Shown here piece after piece: positions 16,311 through 28,187 of a DNA stretch of 64,000 bases. Position 1 is the first letter of the stretch. The number at the start of each line of letters is the position of its first letter. Both the position numbers and the translations under genes were made by a program. The notes under the pieces are model-generated. The model was not told the DNA's origin. It saw only the letters and a list, made by a program, of their open reading frames with translations, and searched no databases. Where the stretch lies: assembly GCF_028689785.1 (NCBI RefSeq), contig NZ_JAQVCN010000001.1, positions 1 through 64,000 on the forward strand, in the 5' to 3' direction. Source of the stretch: Zoogloea sp. (lineage in GTDB: Bacteria; Pseudomonadota; Gammaproteobacteria; Burkholderiales; Rhodocyclaceae).

Positions 16311-16793
16311 TTACTGCACGCGCACTTCCACGCGACGGGCTTCAGCGGCGTCGGTGCCACCCAGGGTCACGGCGGGCTTGCGCATGGCCACCTTGTCGGC
16401 CGGCACACCGGCAGCGATCAGGGCATCCTTGAGGGCCACGGCGCGGGCCTTGGCCACTTCGGCATTGACCGCGGCGCCACCGGTTTCGTCGTGGTAACCG
16501 GAGATCAGCACGATCTTGCTGGGATCTTCCTGCAGCTTGGCGACGACCTTGGCCACTTCCTCAGCAGCATTGGCGGGCAGCTCAGCCATGCCAGAGTCGA
16601 AGTAGAGCTTAGCCAGAGCATCGCCCACTTCGGCGATTTCGGGCACTTCGGCAACTTCGGCAACCGAAGCCGCCTTGGTGTTGGTCTGGCCGGTGACATA
16701 AACGGTCAGGCCGATCACCAGGCCGATCACCAGGGCGATGATGCCGAACAGGATGCCCAGTACGAGGTTCTGGTTGTCGTCGTCTTCTTGCAT
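16311..16793 (-). CDS. Small membrane-anchored OmpA-domain protein
   Basis: 160 residues: a short acidic N-terminus (MQEDDDNQN), one transmembrane helix (about 10-33), and a C-terminal OmpA/MotB-like peptidoglycan-binding domain (YFDSGMAELPANAAEEV, then ISGYHDETGGAAVN and RRVEVRVQ). It is probably inner-membrane anchored with the domain in the periplasm. AAGGA precedes ATG 16793. It is a single-gene unit between its own terminator and the dar-like operon. Confidence 0.82.
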   Translation of the reverse strand: MQEDDDNQNLVLGILFGIIALVIGLVIGLTVYVTGQTNTKAASVAEVAEVPEIAEVGDALAKLYFDSGMAELPANAAEEVAKVVAKLQEDPSKIVLISGYHDETGGAAVNAEVAKARAVALKDALIAAGVPADKVAMRKPAVTLGGTDAAEARRVEVRVQ

Positions 16794-16903
16794 AGGAAAA
16801 ATCCTTTCTAGGTCAAGGTTGAAATCAAACCTTGCGAGTATACCGGCTTAATCGGGTGTGCTCCGCGGGATGCGAAAAGGAAAAGTTAAAAAGCTATTCA
16901 CAA

Positions 16904-17935
16904 TCAGGGAGCAGCCTGCCCCTTGAAGCCCACCACCATGGCGTCCGCTCCCGTCAGCCTCTCCCGGTAACAGCCCTGGAAGCCGGCTTCCGTCATCCAG
17001 CCGATGCAGTCTGCCGCTGTGTAGTCGAAGCCGCCCCGGGTCTCGATCAGCATGGTGAGGCTCATCAGCAATCCCTGGACGTTGCTCTCACGGGCGTCGT
17101 CGATCATGGCTTCATAGACGATCAGGGCGCCGCCGGGCGGCAGGGCCGCGTAGGCCTTGTCGATCAGGAAGCGCTTCTCCTGCAGATCCCAGTCATGCAG
17201 GATATGCCCCATCACGATCACCTGGGCGGCGGGCAGGGCATCGCGGAAGAAGTCTCCGGCCATGAACCCGACCCGGTCCGCCACCCCGAGACGGGCGGTG
17301 TGATCGGCAAAGATGGTGGCCACCGTGGGCAGGTCGAAGCCGGAGCCGCGCAGGTGGGGATGGACGATGGCCACCTGGGCGGCCAGATCACCCTGAGCAG
17401 TGCCGAGGTCGACAAAACTGGCGTACTTGCCCCATGGAAACTTGCGCGCGATGGCCTGGTTGGCCCCCCGCGACAGGGCCGTCATGGCGCTCAGGAACTG
17501 GCGGTGGCGCAGCGGATCGGCGGCGAGGGCCGAGAACAGGGTTTCGCCGCCGTTCTTCAGCTCGTTCTGGGGCAAGCCGGTCCTGAGAGCATCGGTGAGG
17601 CCGGCCCAGTAATGGTAGAGGCGCTGGTTGACCATCTCCAGCAGCGCCGCGATGCAGGACTCGCTCTCCCGGTCGAGATAGCGGGCCGCCGGCGGGGTGT
17701 TGGTGTAGATGCCGTCCTGGCGCTCCAGGAAACCCAGGGCCACCAGGGTGTCCAGGAAGTCGCGGCTGGCGCGGGGGTGCAGGCCCAGGCGCTGCTCCAG
17801 GTCGGCGGCACTGCCGGGCTGGCGTGCCAGGGCGGTAAACACGTCCAGCTCCACCGCGCTGAGCAGGGTCTTGGCGGCACTGAAACCGGTGCCGATGCTG
17901 AGAATGTATTCGGGGCTGATGAAGTCGTCAGCCAT
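16904..17935 (-). CDS. SAM-dependent O-methyltransferase (last gene of resorcinol-lipid operon)
   Basis: 343 residues. N-terminal dimerisation/winged-helix part (SAKTLLSAVELDVFTALA, then LHPRASRDFLDTLVALGFLER), then a class I methyltransferase fold: motif I VDLGTAQGDLAAQVA near 190, GFMAGDFFRDALP and VIVMGHILHDWDLQEK near 245. Closest in style to hydroxyneurosporene and plant-type O-methyltransferases (Methyltransf_2). GGAGAG precedes ATG 17935, which overlaps the upstream stop at 17928. As the tenth gene of the operon it probably methylates a phenolic hydroxyl of the resorcinol product; that is inference. A longer frame running up to 18502 is read-through, not protein. Confidence 0.85.
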   Translation of the reverse strand: MADDFISPEYILSIGTGFSAAKTLLSAVELDVFTALARQPGSAADLEQRLGLHPRASRDFLDTLVALGFLERQDGIYTNTPPAARYLDRESESCIAALLEMVNQRLYHYWAGLTDALRTGLPQNELKNGGETLFSALAADPLRHRQFLSAMTALSRGANQAIARKFPWGKYASFVDLGTAQGDLAAQVAIVHPHLRGSGFDLPTVATIFADHTARLGVADRVGFMAGDFFRDALPAAQVIVMGHILHDWDLQEKRFLIDKAYAALPPGGALIVYEAMIDDARESNVQGLLMSLTMLIETRGGFDYTAADCIGWMTEAGFQGCYRERLTGADAMVVGFKGQAAP

Positions 17936-18533
17936 GGACGCTCTCCAGAGTTGAACGGGCCAGGTGCAGCTGCGCACCGGACAGGGCCAGATGGGTGACG
18001 GCCGGGTCGGCCAGGGTCTCGAACGCGCCACAGGCAAGGGTCGGGGCCGGGCCGGGCTCGGGCAGCAGGCGCAGCCACAGGCTGCGGCCCGCTTCGTCCT
18101 CGTCCACCCAGCCGGCCAGCAGACCCGCCGGGCCGGCCTCCACGCAGGCCAGTTGCAACGCCGGGGCGGGCGCACGGCTGGAAAGGCAGCGCCCCTCCCC
18201 ATGCCAGTCCAGGTAACGGGCCAGGGCCGGCAGCACCTGGCCGGGCTGGCTGGTGAGAAAACCGATGGGCAGGGGCAGGCCGTCACGGGCCTCGGCCAGG
18301 GCTGCCCGCAGGGCGATGTCCGGGCCGTGAAGGGTGGACAGGCTGAGCAGAGCCGCATCGGGAAGGCGGGTTTCATCGGCGTCATCCAGGCACTGGAGGG
18401 CACCGAAAAGCGCCAGCTCGACCCACGCCCCCACCCGCCGCGGGCGCTCGCCCAGGCGGGTGGCGAGGCGCTGGCGCCAGTCGGCCGGGGGCGGATCGGC
18501 AAAGTGCCGGCCGGCGATGCGCCAGATTTTCAT
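17928..18533 (-). CDS. Short beta-ketoacyl-synthase-like protein
   Basis: 201 residues (MKIWRIAGRHFADPPPADWR). The arrangement LSTLHGPDIALRAALAEA, LPIGFLTSQPGQVLPALARYL and a C-terminal strand-rich GWVDEDEAGRSLWLRLL resembles the half-length ketoacyl-synt_2 family that accompanies ketosynthases in aryl-polyene and resorcinol clusters. There is no catalytic Cys in a KS-type context, so if related it would be a non-catalytic partner (chain-length-factor-like). It overlaps both neighbours by a few bases, implying translational coupling with the ketosynthase. The family call is tentative. Confidence 0.6.
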   Translation of the reverse strand: MKIWRIAGRHFADPPPADWRQRLATRLGERPRRVGAWVELALFGALQCLDDADETRLPDAALLSLSTLHGPDIALRAALAEARDGLPLPIGFLTSQPGQVLPALARYLDWHGEGRCLSSRAPAPALQLACVEAGPAGLLAGWVDEDEAGRSLWLRLLPEPGPAPTLACGAFETLADPAVTHLALSGAQLHLARSTLESVHG

Positions 18534-19606
18534 GATGGGCTCCCGTGGGTGTCTTCGAGCACCAGGGCGGCATGGCCACCACCGAAGCCGAGGATCTGGG
18601 CAAGGATGAAACGCAGCTGCGGTGGGCATTCGGGCGCAAGGCCCACGGCCAGCTCAGGATCAGGCGGGCAGGCAGGCAAATCGGGCCAGCGCCCGGCATC
18701 GATGCAGGCCGTGAGCAGGGCCAGCTCGGCCGCACCCGAGGCGCCCAGGGTGTGACCGATGTTCGCCTTGAGGGTGTTCAGCCCCGGCAGGCGGGCAAAA
18801 ACGGCCTTTAGCCCGGCGATCTCTTCGGCATCATTGTGGGGGCTGCCGGCAGCCTGGAGCTTGATCAGATCCACGTCGTCTGCGCCGATGCCGCTGTCGG
18901 CCAGGGCGGCGCGGGCCATGCGCTCGACGGTGTGGCGCGAGGCCCCGGCCGGGTTGCTGCCATCGACCCGGTTGGCGCCGCCGCGCAACCGCCATCGGGC
19001 CGCCGTGCGCCCGAGGGCAAGGGCGGCAACGGCCTCACCGAGCACCAGGCCCGAACGATCTGCCGCCAGGGGGCGAGGCACCAGCGGATCAAGGAGCTGC
19101 AAGGCGCCAAAGCCGGCGCTACTGAAGCGGTTGGCCAGCTCCAGCCCCAGCACCAGGGCCGAATCGGCGTCCCCTGCGCCGATCAGGCGATGGGCGCTGA
19201 GCAGGGCCACGACCGATGAAGTGCACGCGGTGGACACCCAGAACACCGGCCCCTGCCAGTCCAGCCACCCAGCCACCTCCTCGGCGAATTGCTGGCAGTC
19301 GGGCAGGAAGGGCGAGCCATTTTCAAGCGCCCCCACGTTGAGGGACGAGGACGCCAGGAAGATCGGCGCGCTGCGGTCTACCGGGCCGCACTCCGCCACC
19401 GCGGCACGCACCAGCCGGCGCGCGCGGGCGTGCCAGTCGGGGTCGATATCGGGGATGGAAAAGGCCGGGAAGCGGGCATCAGGGGCAAGCTGCACAGGCA
19501 CGGGGCGCACGCCGCCGGCGGCCAGGCTGAGCAGCGCACGGGGCAGATCCAGCCCCAGGGCGCAGGCCAGCCCGCGCCCCTGCAGATAAGTGCCGGCATG
19601 GCTCAC
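18530..19606 (-). CDS. Atypical beta-ketoacyl-ACP synthase
   Basis: 358 residues of thiolase-fold ketosynthase, shorter than FabF (about 410). Nucleophile C128 lies in VSTACTSS. The second catalytic His is kept (ANIGHTLGASGA, H285). The first catalytic His of the usual HGTGT motif appears replaced by Gln: the segment KLQAAGSPHNDAEE aligns with EAHGTGTPxNDxxE, putting Q251 at the His position. This suggests altered decarboxylation, for example acyl loading or cyclisation rather than extension. GTG start at 19606 overlaps the ACP stop (GTGA). Confidence 0.82.
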   Translation of the reverse strand: MSHAGTYLQGRGLACALGLDLPRALLSLAAGGVRPVPVQLAPDARFPAFSIPDIDPDWHARARRLVRAAVAECGPVDRSAPIFLASSSLNVGALENGSPFLPDCQQFAEEVAGWLDWQGPVFWVSTACTSSVVALLSAHRLIGAGDADSALVLGLELANRFSSAGFGALQLLDPLVPRPLAADRSGLVLGEAVAALALGRTAARWRLRGGANRVDGSNPAGASRHTVERMARAALADSGIGADDVDLIKLQAAGSPHNDAEEIAGLKAVFARLPGLNTLKANIGHTLGASGAAELALLTACIDAGRWPDLPACPPDPELAVGLAPECPPQLRFILAQILGFGGGHAALVLEDTHGSPS

Positions 19607-19872
19607 GACAGACGTTCGGTCAGGTGCGCAGCGAGGGTGGCCAGGGAGGCCAGGGCACGGCGGGTCTCCTTGCTGTCGGGCATGCGCACACCGTAGCGCT
19701 TCTGGATGGCCATGGAGACCTGCAGGGCATCGAGGGAATCAAGCTGGAGGCGCGAGTCCGGGCCGAAGAGGATCTCGTCGTCGCCCAGGCCTCCGGCGGG
19801 CTCGGTCTTGTCGGCAGCCTCCAGGATCAGCTGCTTGAGGGCCTGAATGAAAGCGGGGTCAGGGGTGTTCAT
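19603..19872 (-). CDS. Acyl carrier protein
   Basis: 89 residues. The phosphopantetheine attachment serine is S46 in QLDSLDALQVSM, with flanking helices typical of ACPs. It would carry the fatty or beta-ketoacyl substrates for the DarB-like and ketosynthase proteins of this operon (DarC-like role) and perhaps present an acyl group to the BtrH-like protein. ATG at 19872 has only a weak ribosome-binding site. It lies 7 nt after the ABC permease stop and overlaps the ketosynthase start. Confidence 0.9.
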   Translation of the reverse strand: MNTPDPAFIQALKQLILEAADKTEPAGGLGDDEILFGPDSRLQLDSLDALQVSMAIQKRYGVRMPDSKETRRALASLATLAAHLTERLS

Positions 19873-19879
19873 GGTGTGT

Positions 19880-21052
19880 TCAGGGCGTGATTCTGCGGGA
19901 AAAGAGCCGGCTCGCCAGGGCCAGCCCGAGGATGCCGAAGACGGCCAGACGCAAGGCCCAGGGCGCTGCCTCGGCCACATCACCCTGGCGCAGCAGCACG
20001 GTGAGCAGGCCCTCCAGCCCCCAGTTCATGGGTGACAGGCGAGCCAGCTGCTGCATGGCGCCGGGCATGACGAAGGTGGGCACCATGATGCCACCCAGGG
20101 CCGCCATCAGCAGATTGCACAGGGGGCCGAGGGTGTTGGCCTGGGCGTGGGTCCGGACCAGGCAGGCGAGCAGCAGGGCAAAACCGATGGCGGCAAGGCT
20201 GGTGGCGGCCAGCATCATGAGCAGCGCCAGCCAGTGGATGCCGGCCAGGGACAAGGCCTCGCCGCCCAGCAGCGGCATCAGGGCAGCGCCCACCGTCAGC
20301 ATCAGGGCCGCCTGGATGGCGTTGATGCCCACGTAGGGCAAGGCCTTGGCGAGGATCTGGATACGTGCGGGCACACCCAGCGCCGCCAGCCGGGCCAGGG
20401 CGCCGCTGTGCTGCTCCTGCACGAAGAGGCTGCTGATGGCCGTGACCACGAAGAACATGCCGAAAACCAGCCAGGCTGGCACGTTCTGCTGCACCGCGCT
20501 GACCGGGCGCTGGGTGCTGCCCAACTGCTCTACTGCCATGAAGGGCAGGATGGACTGGCTGCCCCGGGGGCTCTCGCCCGTGAAGCTGGCCTGCAGCAGG
20601 GCCGCCCGCAGCTCGCCCACGGCGCTGGCAAGCTCGGCCTGCAGGGTGCGGAAAGCCCCCTGGTCGAGGCCCGGCTCGACCCGCAGATGCACCACCGGGG
20701 CGCGAGGCGGATCAAGGTCGCTCAAGGCATCGGCCAGGCCGGCGTCCAGGGTCAGCACGTAGGCCAGGCGCCCTTGGCGCAGAGCCTCGTCCACCGCGCC
20801 GGGGGTGGCCGGCAGGGGCCTGGCGGTGCCGTGGGCTTTGGCCCAGGTGGCGCTGATGCGCCGGGCCGCGGGGCTCTCCGTGGCGCTGTCGATGGCGTAG
20901 GGGAGCTGCCGCAGGGGGGGCGCGTACAGGTTCTGCAGGGCCAGGGACATGATCACGATGAAGGCCGCCGGCATCAGGAATAGAGCCGCCAGGGCATGGG
21001 GATCACGCAGCAGGGCGAGGAGCTCCTTGCGGATCAGGGCGAGCAGCATCAT
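19880..21052 (-). CDS. ABC-2 type exporter permease
   Basis: 390 residues. One transmembrane helix near residues 20-42 (ALFLMPAAFIVIMSLALQ), a large extracytoplasmic loop (about 45-205), then five more helices (about 210-385, e.g. LVFGMFFVVTAISSLF and ALGGIMVPTFVMPGAMQQL). This is the ABC-2/DrrB-YhhJ layout used for drug, lipid and polysaccharide export. Its ATG (21052) overlaps the ATPase stop (21049-21051). Together they form an exporter inside a biosynthetic operon, presumably for the aryl lipid. Confidence 0.88.
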   Translation of the reverse strand: MMLLALIRKELLALLRDPHALAALFLMPAAFIVIMSLALQNLYAPPLRQLPYAIDSATESPAARRISATWAKAHGTARPLPATPGAVDEALRQGRLAYVLTLDAGLADALSDLDPPRAPVVHLRVEPGLDQGAFRTLQAELASAVGELRAALLQASFTGESPRGSQSILPFMAVEQLGSTQRPVSAVQQNVPAWLVFGMFFVVTAISSLFVQEQHSGALARLAALGVPARIQILAKALPYVGINAIQAALMLTVGAALMPLLGGEALSLAGIHWLALLMMLAATSLAAIGFALLLACLVRTHAQANTLGPLCNLLMAALGGIMVPTFVMPGAMQQLARLSPMNWGLEGLLTVLLRQGDVAEAAPWALRLAVFGILGLALASRLFSRRITP

Positions 21053-21978
21053 TGATCCCGCAGCCGGGTATCGGTCAAGTTCATGAACAGGCGCTCAAGG
21101 CTGTAACGCCCGAAGCGGGCTTCGCGGATGCGCCCTCCCCGCGCCTCAATGCGGGCCAGCGCCGCCACTGGCGAGGCGGTAGCGGCGAGATCAAGCTTCA
21201 GGTGAACGCCGGCCACCTCCAACTGGCCCTCGATCTCGCCGGCCAGGGCCGCCAGCGCGTCGGCGTCGAGGGGCGCTTCAAGCTGCAGTTCGACCTGCCC
21301 CCGGGCCTGAGCCAGAAGTTCCGTCAGGCTGCCCTGGCGGAGCACGCGTCCTCGATCGACGATCACCACCCGATCGGCGACAGCTTCGATCTCTTCCATG
21401 TAATGGCTGGTGTAGATCACCCCCATGCCGGAGGCAGCCAGGCTACGCACGGTCTCCAGCAGAAAGGCCCGGGACTGGGGATCGACGCCCACCGTCGGCT
21501 CGTCGAGCACCAGCAGCCCAGGGGTCGGCAGCAAGGCAATAGCCAGGTTGAGCCGGCGCTTGAGCCCGCCGGAGAGGTGCTCGACGCGAGTGGCGACAAA
21601 GTCTTCGAGACGGGTGGCGGCGAGAGCCCGGGCGATGGCCTGCCTGGCCGCGGTACCGGACAGGCGGCTGGCGGCAGCGAAGCAGCGCAGGTTTTCGGCC
21701 ACGCTCAGCATGGGATAGAAGGCAAAGTCTTGAGGCGCGATGGCGATGCAGCCGGGCGCACGTCGGCGAAGGTCATCAAGGGCTTCACCGTCAAACTCGA
21801 TCTGCCCTGCCGCAGGCTGGAGCAGCCCGGCCAGATGGGCTACCAGGGTGGACTTGCCGGCCCCGTTGGGCCCGAGGAGGCCAAGGATCTCACCACGCCG
21901 GGCTTCCAGGCTGAAATCCACGAGGGCCGGCGTCGTCGCTGCCGGATAGCGATAGTGGAGCCCGCGGACCTGCAACAT
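21049..21978 (-). CDS. ABC exporter ATP-binding protein
   Basis: 309-residue nucleotide-binding subunit: Walker A GPNGAGKST at 36-44, signature LSGGLKRRL from 135, Walker B LLVLDEPTVGVDP from 154, switch His in YTSHYMEE. The C-terminal extension of about 80 residues is typical of DrrA/CcmA-like exporters. The start overlaps the BtrH-like stop by one base (TGATG). It powers the permease encoded next. Confidence 0.93.
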   Translation of the reverse strand: MLQVRGLHYRYPAATTPALVDFSLEARRGEILGLLGPNGAGKSTLVAHLAGLLQPAAGQIEFDGEALDDLRRRAPGCIAIAPQDFAFYPMLSVAENLRCFAAASRLSGTAARQAIARALAATRLEDFVATRVEHLSGGLKRRLNLAIALLPTPGLLVLDEPTVGVDPQSRAFLLETVRSLAASGMGVIYTSHYMEEIEAVADRVVIVDRGRVLRQGSLTELLAQARGQVELQLEAPLDADALAALAGEIEGQLEVAGVHLKLDLAATASPVAALARIEARGGRIREARFGRYSLERLFMNLTDTRLRDQ

Positions 21979-22964
21979 CAGGACACCGCGGCCTTGAGCT
22001 CGGTAAAGAAGCCCTTCTCGGCTGCCGCCAGGGCGAAAAGGTGCTCGGCCAGGGCCGGCGGATCAAAGGGGTCTCGCCCTTTCACCATGCGTGCGGCCGC
22101 CAAAGCAAAGGCCCGCCAGCCATCACCAATGTCCATCAGGCGTTCGGCAAACTCGCCGAGGGCCGGGCGCTCCGCCGGCCGGGCGGCCTCCTGCAGGAAG
22201 GCCGCGTAGAGAAAGCGGAAGCCGGCACCACCGGTGCCGATCTCCTCCTGCATGCGCACGATGTGGCCCACCAGGCGCAGGCTGTCCGGCTTGCCGCGAT
22301 CCATCCTGCCCAGGCCGCGGGCCAGCCCGCGAATGCCGCCCGCACCGAAGATGGGCAGCGGCGCCAGCATGCTCCAGGCAACCCGATGGATGGCCTGGCG
22401 GATTGCCTTGGGCGGGATGTCGCGCCCGGGCACCGCGGTAGGAAAGTACAAGGTGCCTTTGGGGGCCAGCATGCCCTTGGCAAAGCGGGCGCGGTTGAGG
22501 TCGTCCCGGTGGCAGCGCACCGGGTGCTCCCCCACCGGGTCGCTGATCAGGTATTCGTCCCCTTCCCGCCCGTAGACCACCAGGTTGTGGGCGTTGAAGT
22601 GAAAGCGCATGTCTTCGGGAAAATAGGGCAGCCAGTAGACTGAAGTCTGCAGGCCCACCACCTGCCCCTGGTCGAGCAATGCATCCAGGCGCGCCTCACC
22701 AGCGGCCATGCTGGAAAAGCGTTCGATCCGGAAATGCACGCCCAGGGACTTGCGCACCCCCCGGATGATCGCCCGGGGCGGTACCCGGTAGGCGATCAGC
22801 GGCATCTCCTGGATGCGTACGAAGGGCAGATAAGCGAAGCTCAGGCCGCCGCCTAGACCAAAAGCCATGGGTTCGCCGATGGGGAGCCCATGGTGGTTGA
22901 GGAGATTGGCAACCGTGCCGCTTTCACAATGGGCGGCGTGGCGATGCTGGAAATCCGCGCTCAT
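21978..22964 (-). CDS. BtrH-like N-terminal-domain protein (putative acyl-ACP transferase or C39-like)
   Basis: 328 residues. The N-terminus (HRHAAHCESGTVANLLNHHG, then EPMAFGLGGGLSFAYLP) is the BtrH N-terminal fold. A candidate Cys-His-Asp triad in papain/C39 order is visible: C13, H126 in FHFNAHNLVVYG and D142 in YLISDPVG. BtrH of butirosin synthesis transfers an acyl group from an ACP to an amino sugar. Here an ACP is encoded three genes downstream, so acyl transfer from that carrier is plausible but unproven. The ATG at 22964 overlaps the stop of the 131-aa gene (ATGA). The C-terminal 120 residues are helical with no motif I recognise. Confidence 0.75.
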   Translation of the reverse strand: MSADFQHRHAAHCESGTVANLLNHHGLPIGEPMAFGLGGGLSFAYLPFVRIQEMPLIAYRVPPRAIIRGVRKSLGVHFRIERFSSMAAGEARLDALLDQGQVVGLQTSVYWLPYFPEDMRFHFNAHNLVVYGREGDEYLISDPVGEHPVRCHRDDLNRARFAKGMLAPKGTLYFPTAVPGRDIPPKAIRQAIHRVAWSMLAPLPIFGAGGIRGLARGLGRMDRGKPDSLRLVGHIVRMQEEIGTGGAGFRFLYAAFLQEAARPAERPALGEFAERLMDIGDGWRAFALAAARMVKGRDPFDPPALAEHLFALAAAEKGFFTELKAAVS

Positions 22965-23356
22965 GGCAGGGCCCGCAGTGTTTCCGGAGAAACGCCCAAG
23001 GCGGCGGCGTAGCGGCTCAGCAGTTCTGGTGACAGCCGGGCGAATACGGCCGGGCGGAAATGGCGGCGGATGCGCCAGCGCCACACCCCGCAGCTCTGGG
23101 CGAAGGTGGCGATGTCCATGCGGCGGGCGTACATCCAGTATTCCAGGGGCGATGACTGGCCGGCCACCACCCGGGCCCGGGCCGCCTTGGCGTAGGCATC
23201 GAAGACATCCACGGCCTGGAGGGTGACGATCTCTTCGGCCTCCCAGCCGGCGGACTCCACCGCAACGATCGCTCCACCCGCCCCCCGCGCATACACGGCC
23301 TTGCGATGGCCGCCGAGGGTGGCGTTGCCATCCTGGGGCACATCCTGAACATCCAT
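22961..23356 (-). CDS. 131-aa protein of unknown function in the resorcinol-lipid operon
   Basis: Starts ATG 23356 overlapping the DarB-like stop by one base and ends overlapping the BtrH-like start. The N-terminal half is beta-rich with many glycines (YARGAGGAIVAVESAGW). The C-terminal half is helical and basic: RRMDIATFAQSCGVWRWRIR then LSPELLSRYAAALGVSPETL, resembling an HTH (XRE-like) bundle, though no DNA contact role can be claimed. I do not recognise the family. Rigid position between darB-like and btrH-like genes argues for a pathway role. The much longer frame through this region up to 24241 is a shadow of the DarB-like gene. Confidence 0.65.
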   Translation of the reverse strand: MDVQDVPQDGNATLGGHRKAVYARGAGGAIVAVESAGWEAEEIVTLQAVDVFDAYAKAARARVVAGQSSPLEYWMYARRMDIATFAQSCGVWRWRIRRHFRPAVFARLSPELLSRYAAALGVSPETLRALP

Positions 23357-24492
23357 CAGACCGCCTCCAGAAACACGAAACCGCTGGAGAAGCGCCCGCT
23401 TTCCGGCACGTAGAGCAGGATCTTCTGGCCCGGGCGGATGCGCCCGGAGCGCATCAGCTCGTCGAGCATGATGTAAGGCGACGCGGAACCCGTGTTGCCC
23501 TTGTCCACCAGGTTGGTAAACCACCGGAACGTGGGGATGGGGAAGCCGATGTCCGCCAGGGTGCGTTCGAGGACGGGGGCGAAATACAGGGACGAGATGT
23601 GGGGCAGGAACCAGTCCACGTCCTCGGGGCGGAGGCCATGGCGGGCCTGGAGGGCGTGGATGGGATCGGTGAGGGTGACCGGGGCGACGTGTTCGTTGAG
23701 GAGCCGGACATCCTGTTTGAGCGAGAAGATGGAGCGGGAGGCCCAGTCGGTCACCGGGAAGCGCACCCACCCGCGCAGGCCGCCGTCGGACTCCTTCTCG
23801 GCGCCGGCGTACATGCAGGCGGGCAGCCGGTGGGCGTTGGAGAACAGCTCGATCCAGCACACCCGGAGGGAGACCTGCCCCGGCCGGGGCGTCGGCTCCA
23901 GCAGCAGGGCCCCGGCCCCGTCGGACAGCATCCAGCGCAGGAACTCCTTGTCGAAGGCAATCTCGGGGCGCGCTTCCAGCTCCCGCGCCAGGTGTTCGCT
24001 CTCGGCCTCGAAATGGCTTGCCCGCATGACCGGCGAGACCAGCTCGGAACCCGTGGCGATGGCGCGCCTGGCACTGCGCGAGGCCACGCTCATGGCCGCG
24101 TACTTGAGGGCAGCGGTGCCCGACAGGCAGATGCCCGCCAGGGACACCACTTCCAGCTGGGGCCAGCCCAGCTCGCCATGGACCATCACCCCGTGTCCGG
24201 GGAGGAGCTGGTCGGCATGGGAGGTGCCCGTGGCCAGGCAATCCACCGGGCCCACATCGCCGAGGGCGCGGATGGCCTCTGCGGTGAGCCGGGCGTGGGT
24301 CATCACCGGCTCGCGGGTGACCGGGTCGAGGGCGTAATGGCGGGTCTTGATGCCGTTGTTGCGCAGCACGATGCGCCGCGCCCGGGAGGGCTTGCCGCCG
24401 ACCATGCCAAGGATGGACTCGATACCCTCATTGGGTACCGGCTCCAGGGGCAGGTAGGCGGCAGATCCGGTGATGAAGACGTCAGAAATCAT
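23356..24492 (-). CDS. darB: DarB-like ketoacyl-ACP synthase III (dialkylresorcinol ring formation)
   Basis: 378 residues, FabH-fold. The catalytic triad is complete: C122 in SLAGICLSGTAALK, H298 in FLPHISS and N333 in KGNTGSAS. DarB enzymes condense a beta-ketoacyl thioester with a second acyl thioester and cyclise the product to a cyclohexanedione, which DarA aromatises to 2,5-dialkylresorcinol. ATG 24492 overlaps the darA-like stop (24482); a TTG at 24501 is an alternative start. The symbol is by similarity and neighbourhood; substrates are unknown. Confidence 0.82.
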   Translation of the reverse strand: MISDVFITGSAAYLPLEPVPNEGIESILGMVGGKPSRARRIVLRNNGIKTRHYALDPVTREPVMTHARLTAEAIRALGDVGPVDCLATGTSHADQLLPGHGVMVHGELGWPQLEVVSLAGICLSGTAALKYAAMSVASRSARRAIATGSELVSPVMRASHFEAESEHLARELEARPEIAFDKEFLRWMLSDGAGALLLEPTPRPGQVSLRVCWIELFSNAHRLPACMYAGAEKESDGGLRGWVRFPVTDWASRSIFSLKQDVRLLNEHVAPVTLTDPIHALQARHGLRPEDVDWFLPHISSLYFAPVLERTLADIGFPIPTFRWFTNLVDKGNTGSASPYIMLDELMRSGRIRPGQKILLYVPESGRFSSGFVFLEAV

Positions 24493-25465
24493 AGTGGGCA
24501 AGGCGTTCGAGGCCGGAGCCCGAGGGCTGCTCGTAGGATGCCTTCACCGCGTCGAGACGGCGACGCAGGAAGGGGCGCAAAAATGCCTGTAGGGCAAGAG
24601 AAACCGGGACCACCGTAAGAATGATGGCTACCAAAAATATCAGGTACAAGGCCAGCAAGGGCAGGCGCTGCCAGGCGCCGGGCCGGCCGGCCCGGTGCAG
24701 CAGCGTACCCCAGACACGGAAACTGCGGCTGCCGGCCCTTTCGCTGACGAGCAGCTCGGGGCGTGCCTCTACGGCGCCAAGCCCGGCCAGCAGCGGCGCC
24801 GTCCCCTGCTCGCGGTCATCCAGCAGGGCGTCTCGCAGTGCCCGACCAAAGCGGACGCTGCGCCGGATGTCGTCCTCGGCCACGCCGGCAGGCGGCAGTC
24901 CGGGCACCGGCTTGCGACGCCCGGTGAGCAGCCACAAGGGCGTGGTGAGCAGGGTGGCGAGGGTGGGGGCACGGTCGGTGAGCACTACGTTGTCCAGGTG
25001 CCGGGCGCCAATCTCCGCCAGCCGCGCCCGGACCCGGTCGTGGGCCATCATCCACATGTTGCGACAGGCCACCACCGTGACCACCGGCTTGTTGCGCAGC
25101 AGGCGCGCGCCCTCGTCGCCGAGGAGAAAGGCGGCCACCGGCTGACTGGGGGCGAGAAACCACACCTGGTAAAACAGGATGACCAGGTCGTAGGACTCGT
25201 CGGCGGGGAGATCCAGGGGCGCGATCTCGCCGGGCCGCATCAATGCCGATTCGGGAAAGGCGTCGAGAAAGCGGAAGAACGGCCATGGAAACGGAAACGC
25301 CACTTGCGGACGGAGCTGCACCACCCGCAAAGCAATACCGGGCTCGGCCAGCAGGGGTTCAATCAGGCGCCCGGCAATGGCGGACAGCTGGCCCGTCTGT
25401 GTGTAAACGACGACCAGCGCACGCTTCGTGGGCCCGGGTGCAGCGTGATGCGATTCGTTCGACAC
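24482..25465 (-). CDS. darA: DarA-like dialkylresorcinol condensing/aromatising enzyme
   Basis: 327 residues, GTG start (25465). The N-terminal half is a flavodoxin-like fold (ALVVVYTQTGQLSAIAG at about 16-32; VILFYQVWFLAPSQP near 95), consistent with an NAD(P)H/flavin redox or aromatase role. A hydrophobic helix near 270-290 (LYLIFLVAIILTVVPVSL) anchors the C-terminus to the membrane. Proteins of this type are annotated as dialkylresorcinol condensing enzyme DarA. It is the first gene of the ten-gene operon. The start codon has a poor ribosome-binding site, so the exact start is uncertain. Confidence 0.8.
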   Translation of the reverse strand: MSNESHHAAPGPTKRALVVVYTQTGQLSAIAGRLIEPLLAEPGIALRVVQLRPQVAFPFPWPFFRFLDAFPESALMRPGEIAPLDLPADESYDLVILFYQVWFLAPSQPVAAFLLGDEGARLLRNKPVVTVVACRNMWMMAHDRVRARLAEIGARHLDNVVLTDRAPTLATLLTTPLWLLTGRRKPVPGLPPAGVAEDDIRRSVRFGRALRDALLDDREQGTAPLLAGLGAVEARPELLVSERAGSRSFRVWGTLLHRAGRPGAWQRLPLLALYLIFLVAIILTVVPVSLALQAFLRPFLRRRLDAVKASYEQPSGSGLERLAHYDF

Positions 25466-25497
25466 TGGGGGATCTGATGGCGCGTTTCAATAGCCGC

Positions 25498-25527
25498 ATT
25501 CTATTGCCTGGGCATGTCACCCGGCAA
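25498..25527 (-). promoter_or_regulatory. Candidate promoter of the resorcinol-lipid operon
   Basis: Minus-strand TTGCCG (25522-25527) and TAGAAT (25498-25503) with an 18-nt spacer, placing transcription start about 25 nt before the darA-like GTG. It is the only promoter-like match in the short gap between clpB and the operon. Visual match only. Confidence 0.4.
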
Positions 25528-25558
25528 TCTTGCCGCCACGCCGCCGCACCCGAGCGCC

Positions 25559-25591
25559 ACGGAGCCGCCCGGGCACACCGGGCGGCTCCGT
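25559..25591 (-). terminator. Terminator-like hairpin after clpB
   Basis: A perfect 14-bp GC-rich stem (25559-25572 with 25578-25591, loop GCACA) begins 17 nt past the clpB stop. No T-run follows on the minus strand. It would limit read-through from clpB into the darA-like operon on the same strand. Confidence 0.6.
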
Positions 25592-25607
25592 ATTCAAACA
25601 CCGACGA

Positions 25608-28187
<2,580 letters not shown>

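Follow-up and report, generated by a model that had tools for sequence, protein, structure and literature searches.

What does a ten-gene operon with dialkylresorcinol-type enzymes, an exporter, and a methyltransferase make in Zoogloea sp., and is its pathway a new one? The operon lies in a 64,000-nucleotide stretch of DNA, the whole of which is called the window here. From sequence comparison, we give a probability of roughly 85% to the reading that it is an arcuflavin-type dar locus, which would make the dialkylresorcinol (DAR) half of a xanthomonadin-DAR hybrid pigment, to be joined to an aryl-polyene acid encoded elsewhere in the genome. The pathway is thus of a kind already described, and its main novelty, a modest one, is an extra terminal methyltransferase.

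Operon layout and gene order across the family

Ten minus-strand open reading frames occupy positions 16904-25465, as given in the first-pass annotation (Table 1), with neighbors spaced by -11, -1, -4, -1, -4, +7, -4, -4, and -8 nt. Since the genes overlap by 1 to 11 nt, with a single 7-nt gap, they likely form one transcription unit, which bears out the single operon proposed before. The operon is 142 nt from the upstream clpB and 110 nt from a downstream OmpA-like gene; the upstream gap holds one weak sigma-70-like site (9/12, at 25527-25498), and no terminator-like sites were found in 25440-25640 or 16760-16930. Family models were matched for the ACP, ABC-2 exporter, BtrH-like protein, ketosynthase, and methyltransferase that had been named from the sequence, and the DarD protein scored 160 bits on the DarG_fam model (cut-off 70).

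Table 1. Genes of the operon, in order of transcription, with coordinates in the window.
Gene	Product	Position	Strand	Basis
darA	Flavodoxin-like resorcinol aromatase, long helical C-terminal part	24482..25465	-	Relatives, predicted structure
darB	StlD/DarB-type ketosynthase; judged from relatives, forms a cyclohexanedione	23356..24492	-	NF005293, PDB 5gk0
darD	DarG-family dialkylresorcinol biosynthesis protein	22961..23356	-	NF053536
darE	BtrH-like carrier-protein acyltransferase, candidate for ester formation	21978..22964	-	NF053550, fold, putative triad
darF	ABC exporter ATPase	21049..21978	-	PF00005, 110.4 bits
darI	ABC-2 exporter permease	19880..21052	-	PF12698, 96.4 bits
darC	Acyl carrier protein with DSL site	19603..19872	-	PF00550, 23.1 bits (cut-off 20.8)
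darJ	Ketosynthase-like; Gln in place of the first His, Cys and second His intact	18530..19606	-	PF02801/PF00109, alignment
darK-position gene	Short partner without known domain	17928..18533	-	Position
Terminal methyltransferase	RedM-like SAM O-methyltransferase, not in the published Azoarcus dar order	16904..17935	-	PF00891, 122.5 bits

The presence of DarA/DarB-type enzymes was confirmed. By sequence, DarB is assigned to the StlD/DarB ketosynthases, as HMM search placed it over the cut-off of their model (NF005293, 544.8 bits; cut-off 450) and not in an unrelated family, and it scored 427.7 bits against the StlD structure; the narrow NCBIfam model resorcinol_DarB (NF053539) was not reached (444.2 bits versus a curated cut-off of 550). 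At E ≤ 0.01, neither Pfam nor NCBIfam had a model matching the darA product. It is 37 to 94% identical to 43 relatives, and Flavodoxin_4 was found in 6 of the 44 aligned members, the DarA of the window not among them. The predicted structure of DarA (pLDDT 91.5) had WrbA and flavodoxins as its best Foldseek matches (E 1.1e-5, TM to target about 0.5-0.7). DAR formation has been published for relatives of DarA and DarB. In this route, DarB joins two acyl units to a cyclic dione, which DarA aromatises; here, DarB would likewise condense two acyl units to the dione and the flavodoxin-like DarA would turn it into the aromatic ring.

In Azoarcus sp. BH72, the dar locus azo0283-azo0293 makes the DAR half of the pigment arcuflavin, and Table 1 of PMC3949708 lists it as darA, darB, darD, darE (BtrH-like), darF (ABC ATPase), a toxin-antitoxin-like pair, darI (permease), darC (ACP), darJ (ketosynthase), and darK. 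With this gene order already in print, the view of the operon as the most likely undescribed system in the window falls. The window holds darA-B-D-E-F-I-C-J on one strand in this order. Among the 121 genomes of our family sample, 15, including that of the window, are over the DarH cut-off and thus count as dar-positive; two other sampled genomes of the same genus are not over it. In the loci of the other 14, which were chosen by DarE, tblastn placed darA-B-D-E-F together in all 14 and darI-C-J, darC included, after them in 13, the contig of the 14th (L030) ending after darF. The order is therefore not a chance arrangement of one strain, an outcome that the first-pass annotation had allowed for. 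A Zoogloea MAG (L061) carries the closest DarE among the named matches listed (97% identical), likewise with clpB upstream of darA, and a search for near-identical DNA in plasmids gave no match.

Some loci differ in layout. In L108, L116, L118, L120, L121, L126, L127, L128, L131, and L132, darA-B-D-E and darF-I-C-J lie on opposite strands. In L029 (G086), about 5.5 kb (between 3894 and 9433) separate darI from darF, where BH72 has its toxin-antitoxin-like pair; the darF-darI gap is perhaps a spot for insertions within the operon.

The polyene half of the probable pigment

The locus had been described as not a standard APE-DAR hybrid, for want of ketoreductase or dehydratase genes of aryl-polyene type. 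This objection fails: a different contig carries the polyene cluster, and in Azoarcus, too, the polyene arc genes are unlinked from dar and sit at two other loci (PMC3949708). Most of an arcuflavin/xanthomonadin-type polyene cluster was found in the genome of the window (G000) on contig C12, the window itself being on contig C90. C12 encodes a chorismatase, MipA, an acyltransferase, a glycosyltransferase, an ArcM-like methyltransferase, a Na/H antiporter, a ketoreductase (KR), a chain-length factor (CLF), a ketosynthase (KS), a PS-deacetylase, an exporter, a LolA-like protein, a second acyltransferase, an AMP-ligase with a FabA-like dehydratase end, an ACP, and a KS. By family or by homology to the genome G026, these provide counterparts of arcB, arcC (MipA), arcD (acyltransferase), arcE (glycosyltransferase), arcG, arcH (KR), arcI, arcJ, arcK, arcM (methyltransferase), arcN, arcP, arcQ (LolA), arcR, arcS/T (AMP-ligase with FabA-like end), arcU, and arcV (ACP), the arc genes that the comparison covered. 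Recognizing a known pathway with two unlinked halves removes a false lead, since the polyene half does not show when the locus is judged from one window.

G026, where the two arc loci follow the BH72 layout, has homologues of the C12 arc genes at 42 to 74% identity and in the same order. Within the stretches compared, G067 and G122 also hold arc homologues in matching order, the antiporter not being found in G122. C12 has a further ketosynthase and ACP without counterparts of their own in G026, G067, and G122, and its arcI-position protein has no Pfam match. Genome-wide, PF13723 (chain-length factor) and PF21168 (chorismatase) have a single match apiece, both on C12. The chorismatase (136 bits; cut-off 27), a candidate for the XanB2/ArcB type that gives 3-hydroxybenzoate, is 48% identical to its G026 homologue and stays below the cut-off of TIGR04444 (227.8 of 325), and a match to the ApeI dehydratase PF22818 on C12 is under the cut-off (23 of 28.5). 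The AMP-ligase and FabA-like dehydratase form one 552-aa ORF (L008:1620-3278); these parts are two separate stretches in G026 (L146), and arcS and arcT are listed as two genes in Azoarcus (PMC3949708 Table 1).

Across the family, PF13723 is present in 15/15 dar-positive versus 28/106 dar-negative genomes (Fisher p 2.8e-8, with no correction for relatedness), and it is a loose proxy, as those 28 genomes carry it without dar. This co-occurrence and the polyene cluster in the same genome argue against a free, exported DAR, a signal or antibiotic that would be O-methylated, pumped by DarF/DarI, and without a polyene ester. Such a product would agree with the ABC-2 exporter and methyltransferase within the operon, with the DAR obtained in heterologous hosts from DAR proteins alone (PMC3949708; PMC3992019), and with G079, a genome without a DarH match where a 59% homologue of the methyltransferase follows an ABC-2 exporter pair. 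Yet the operon contains DarE, with its carrier-protein acyltransferase fold, and PMC3949708 reports that no free DAR was detected in Azoarcus extracts; we regard a free DAR as very improbable. The position of DarE beside darD in nearly all loci gives no independent support against it, these loci having been chosen by DarE.

DarE and the proposed joining of the two halves

DarE scored 451.5 bits on the BtrH-related DarH_acyl model NF053550 (cut-off 300), and its residues C13, H126, and D142 are invariant in 52 sequences. A fold search revealed that its predicted fold matches, over the full length, the papain-like fold of the carrier-protein acyltransferases CtaG, AziU3/U2, and CcbD; sequence identity to these and to BtrH-type acyltransferases is 11 to 19%, and no PDB sequence came below E 0.12 with a DarE profile, so that the relatives were found only by fold. 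With this fold and a putative Cys-His-Asp triad, DarE is predicted to be a BtrH/CtaG-like carrier-protein acyltransferase. Both features single it out as the strongest candidate for making the polyene-resorcinol ester: through Cys13/His126/Asp142 it would unload the polyenoyl group of a carrier protein, either DarC or ArcV itself, and esterify a DAR phenol with it. The earlier suggestion of a group transferred from the ACP thus survives as a proposal, now with the DarE fold behind it. CtaG, AziU3/U2, CcbD, and the BtrH-type acyltransferases form amides, whereas DarE is proposed to make an ester on a phenol. For flexirubin, another joining enzyme, FlxW, has been proposed (PMC3992019), which counts against the reading favored here. 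The assignment of DarE is testable and concerns a step left open in the cited parts of PMC3949708 and PMC3992019.

We also considered whether DarE occurs without DarB, and this idea was rejected: among nine genomes chosen for a broken or incomplete DarE-locus operon, DarB is over the cut-off in six, and in G141 it lies below the cut-off in two pieces. G122, expected to be positive, was the tenth genome in this check. G140 (L129) and G146 (L117) have DarD-DarE and no DarB over the cut-off genome-wide, with weak generic matches only; both are MAGs, and incompleteness is possible.

DarJ of the window lacks the complete Cys-His-His triad of condensing ketosynthases, its first His being Gln; among 75 aligned rows, this residue is Gln in 41, His in 33, and a gap in 1. 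The darK-position protein matched no Pfam or NCBIfam model (E ≤ 0.01). By tblastn, a homologue follows darJ in 5/14 family loci (L024, L025, L027, L033, and L035), and none was found in the BH72-like G026 (L032). We do not claim a chain-length-factor identity for this protein: comparing 19 sequences by hhalign with ArcJ, first with one sequence and then with four, yielded no significant match. AmcF-like chemistry for DarJ was rejected because the score is too weak (97.3 of 325 bits) and AmcF is a condensing enzyme (PMC10698177). DarJ and the short darK-position protein would tentatively be assigned to loading or passing acyl chains on DarC, their probable role, and DarF/DarI would export the product, or else the DAR, in the direction of the outer membrane. 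In a more specific scheme, which we consider doubtful, the arc carrier protein gives up the completed polyene to DarC through DarJ and its partner, acting as a non-condensing ketosynthase-like transacylase; DarE would then esterify one resorcinol phenol from DarC, and the RedM-like enzyme would cap the other. If true, two lipids made separately would be joined by a carrier-protein relay, and the pigment would be a new, doubly methylated one.

The terminal methyltransferase and comparison with known pigment loci

The closest solved relative of the terminal methyltransferase is RedM (PDB 8tji, 324.2 bits). An ILHDW motif is kept in 4/4 aligned methyltransferases (the operon enzyme and three homologues), whereas RedM reads ILSNW. 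The His of such a motif is the base for phenol methylation in plant O-methyltransferases, and RedM is an N-methyltransferase.

Outside the window, the gene is rare in dar operons. No match was observed in 14/14 other family dar loci (tblastn E ≤ 1e-2), two of which have little or no sequence past darJ (L030 ends before it, L029 holds 1.4 kb past it); in the whole genomes of these 14, distant homologues (25-27%) lie away from dar in three, and none was found at E ≤ 1e-10 in the rest. Among 80 named loci from a search with the DarE alignment, which are the matches listed and no census, with several short contigs, only L062 has the methyltransferase in the operon, where it comes next after the darK-position gene; when the genomes of 19 of these loci were searched in full, it was found only in that of L062 (G122). 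L062 is a Rhodocyclaceae MAG from a sister lineage, and its enzyme is 65% identical to that of the window. In a DarE tree (41 rows: the window plus L061-L100), the window, L061, and L062 form one clade (support 100/99), and because of this clade a single gain fits; in the L061 genome (G121), no copy of the terminal methyltransferase showed at E ≤ 1e-20, but the dar contig ends inside darI, and a copy may be missed there. A regular-expression scan of 94 dar loci for other SAM methyltransferases gave 14 ORFs, with a pattern that would miss the motif of the operon enzyme itself. In the titles and abstract starts of open-licence papers, no methyltransferase-bearing dar operon was found.

The lack of a tblastn match to the methyltransferase in the 14 family loci, the N-methyltransferase RedM as its nearest structure, and its homologues in G079 and G012, both without a DarH match, would suit a recent passenger with an unrelated substrate. 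The homologue in G079 is at L059:4786-7542, directly after the exporter pair, in a genome with a chain-length-factor match, and that in G012 is 48% identical and outside a dar operon. The gene nevertheless overlaps the darK-position gene by 8 nt and keeps its position in L062, within the same DarE clade, and we judge the passenger reading unlikely.

G000, G121, and G122 have an ArcM homologue, as do 12/15 dar-positive family genomes. Since ArcM is also present, the operon enzyme is a second methyltransferase beside it. Both genomes with the operon enzyme keep ArcM, which makes a second methylation likely, perhaps one of the resorcinol. With ArcM as the polyene-head methyltransferase, the second O-methyl would most likely be added to the remaining DAR phenol. 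The enzyme might instead methylate the polyene, at its head or at some other hydroxyl, and so duplicate or replace ArcM; this is possible and the less probable of the two targets: the motif suits phenolic OH groups generally, arcuflavin bears a methionine-derived methyl on its polyene half (PMC3949708), and aryl-polyene heads are methylated elsewhere (PMC8253772), but ArcM homologues are already in the arc position in both G000 and G122, and the extra gene sits in the dar operon and not in the arc cluster. A second methyltransferase predicts a methoxylated variant in Zoogloea-like bacteria.

Compared by published gene order, not by sequence, eight window genes match the Azoarcus BH72 dar locus in the same order, and a ninth stands in the darK position, an equivalence of position only. 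The toxin-antitoxin-like pair azo0287/0288 between darF and darI is missing from the window operon, which adds the terminal methyltransferase. Most BH72 arc genes have a counterpart in the genome of the window, and arc is unlinked from dar in both. The flexirubin dar/flx system of Chitinophaga pinensis and Flavobacterium johnsoniae also joins a DarA/DarB resorcinol to an aryl-polyene acid, and its polyene starts from tyrosine (PMC3992019), whereas the chorismatase in the genome of the window points to a hydroxybenzoate start.
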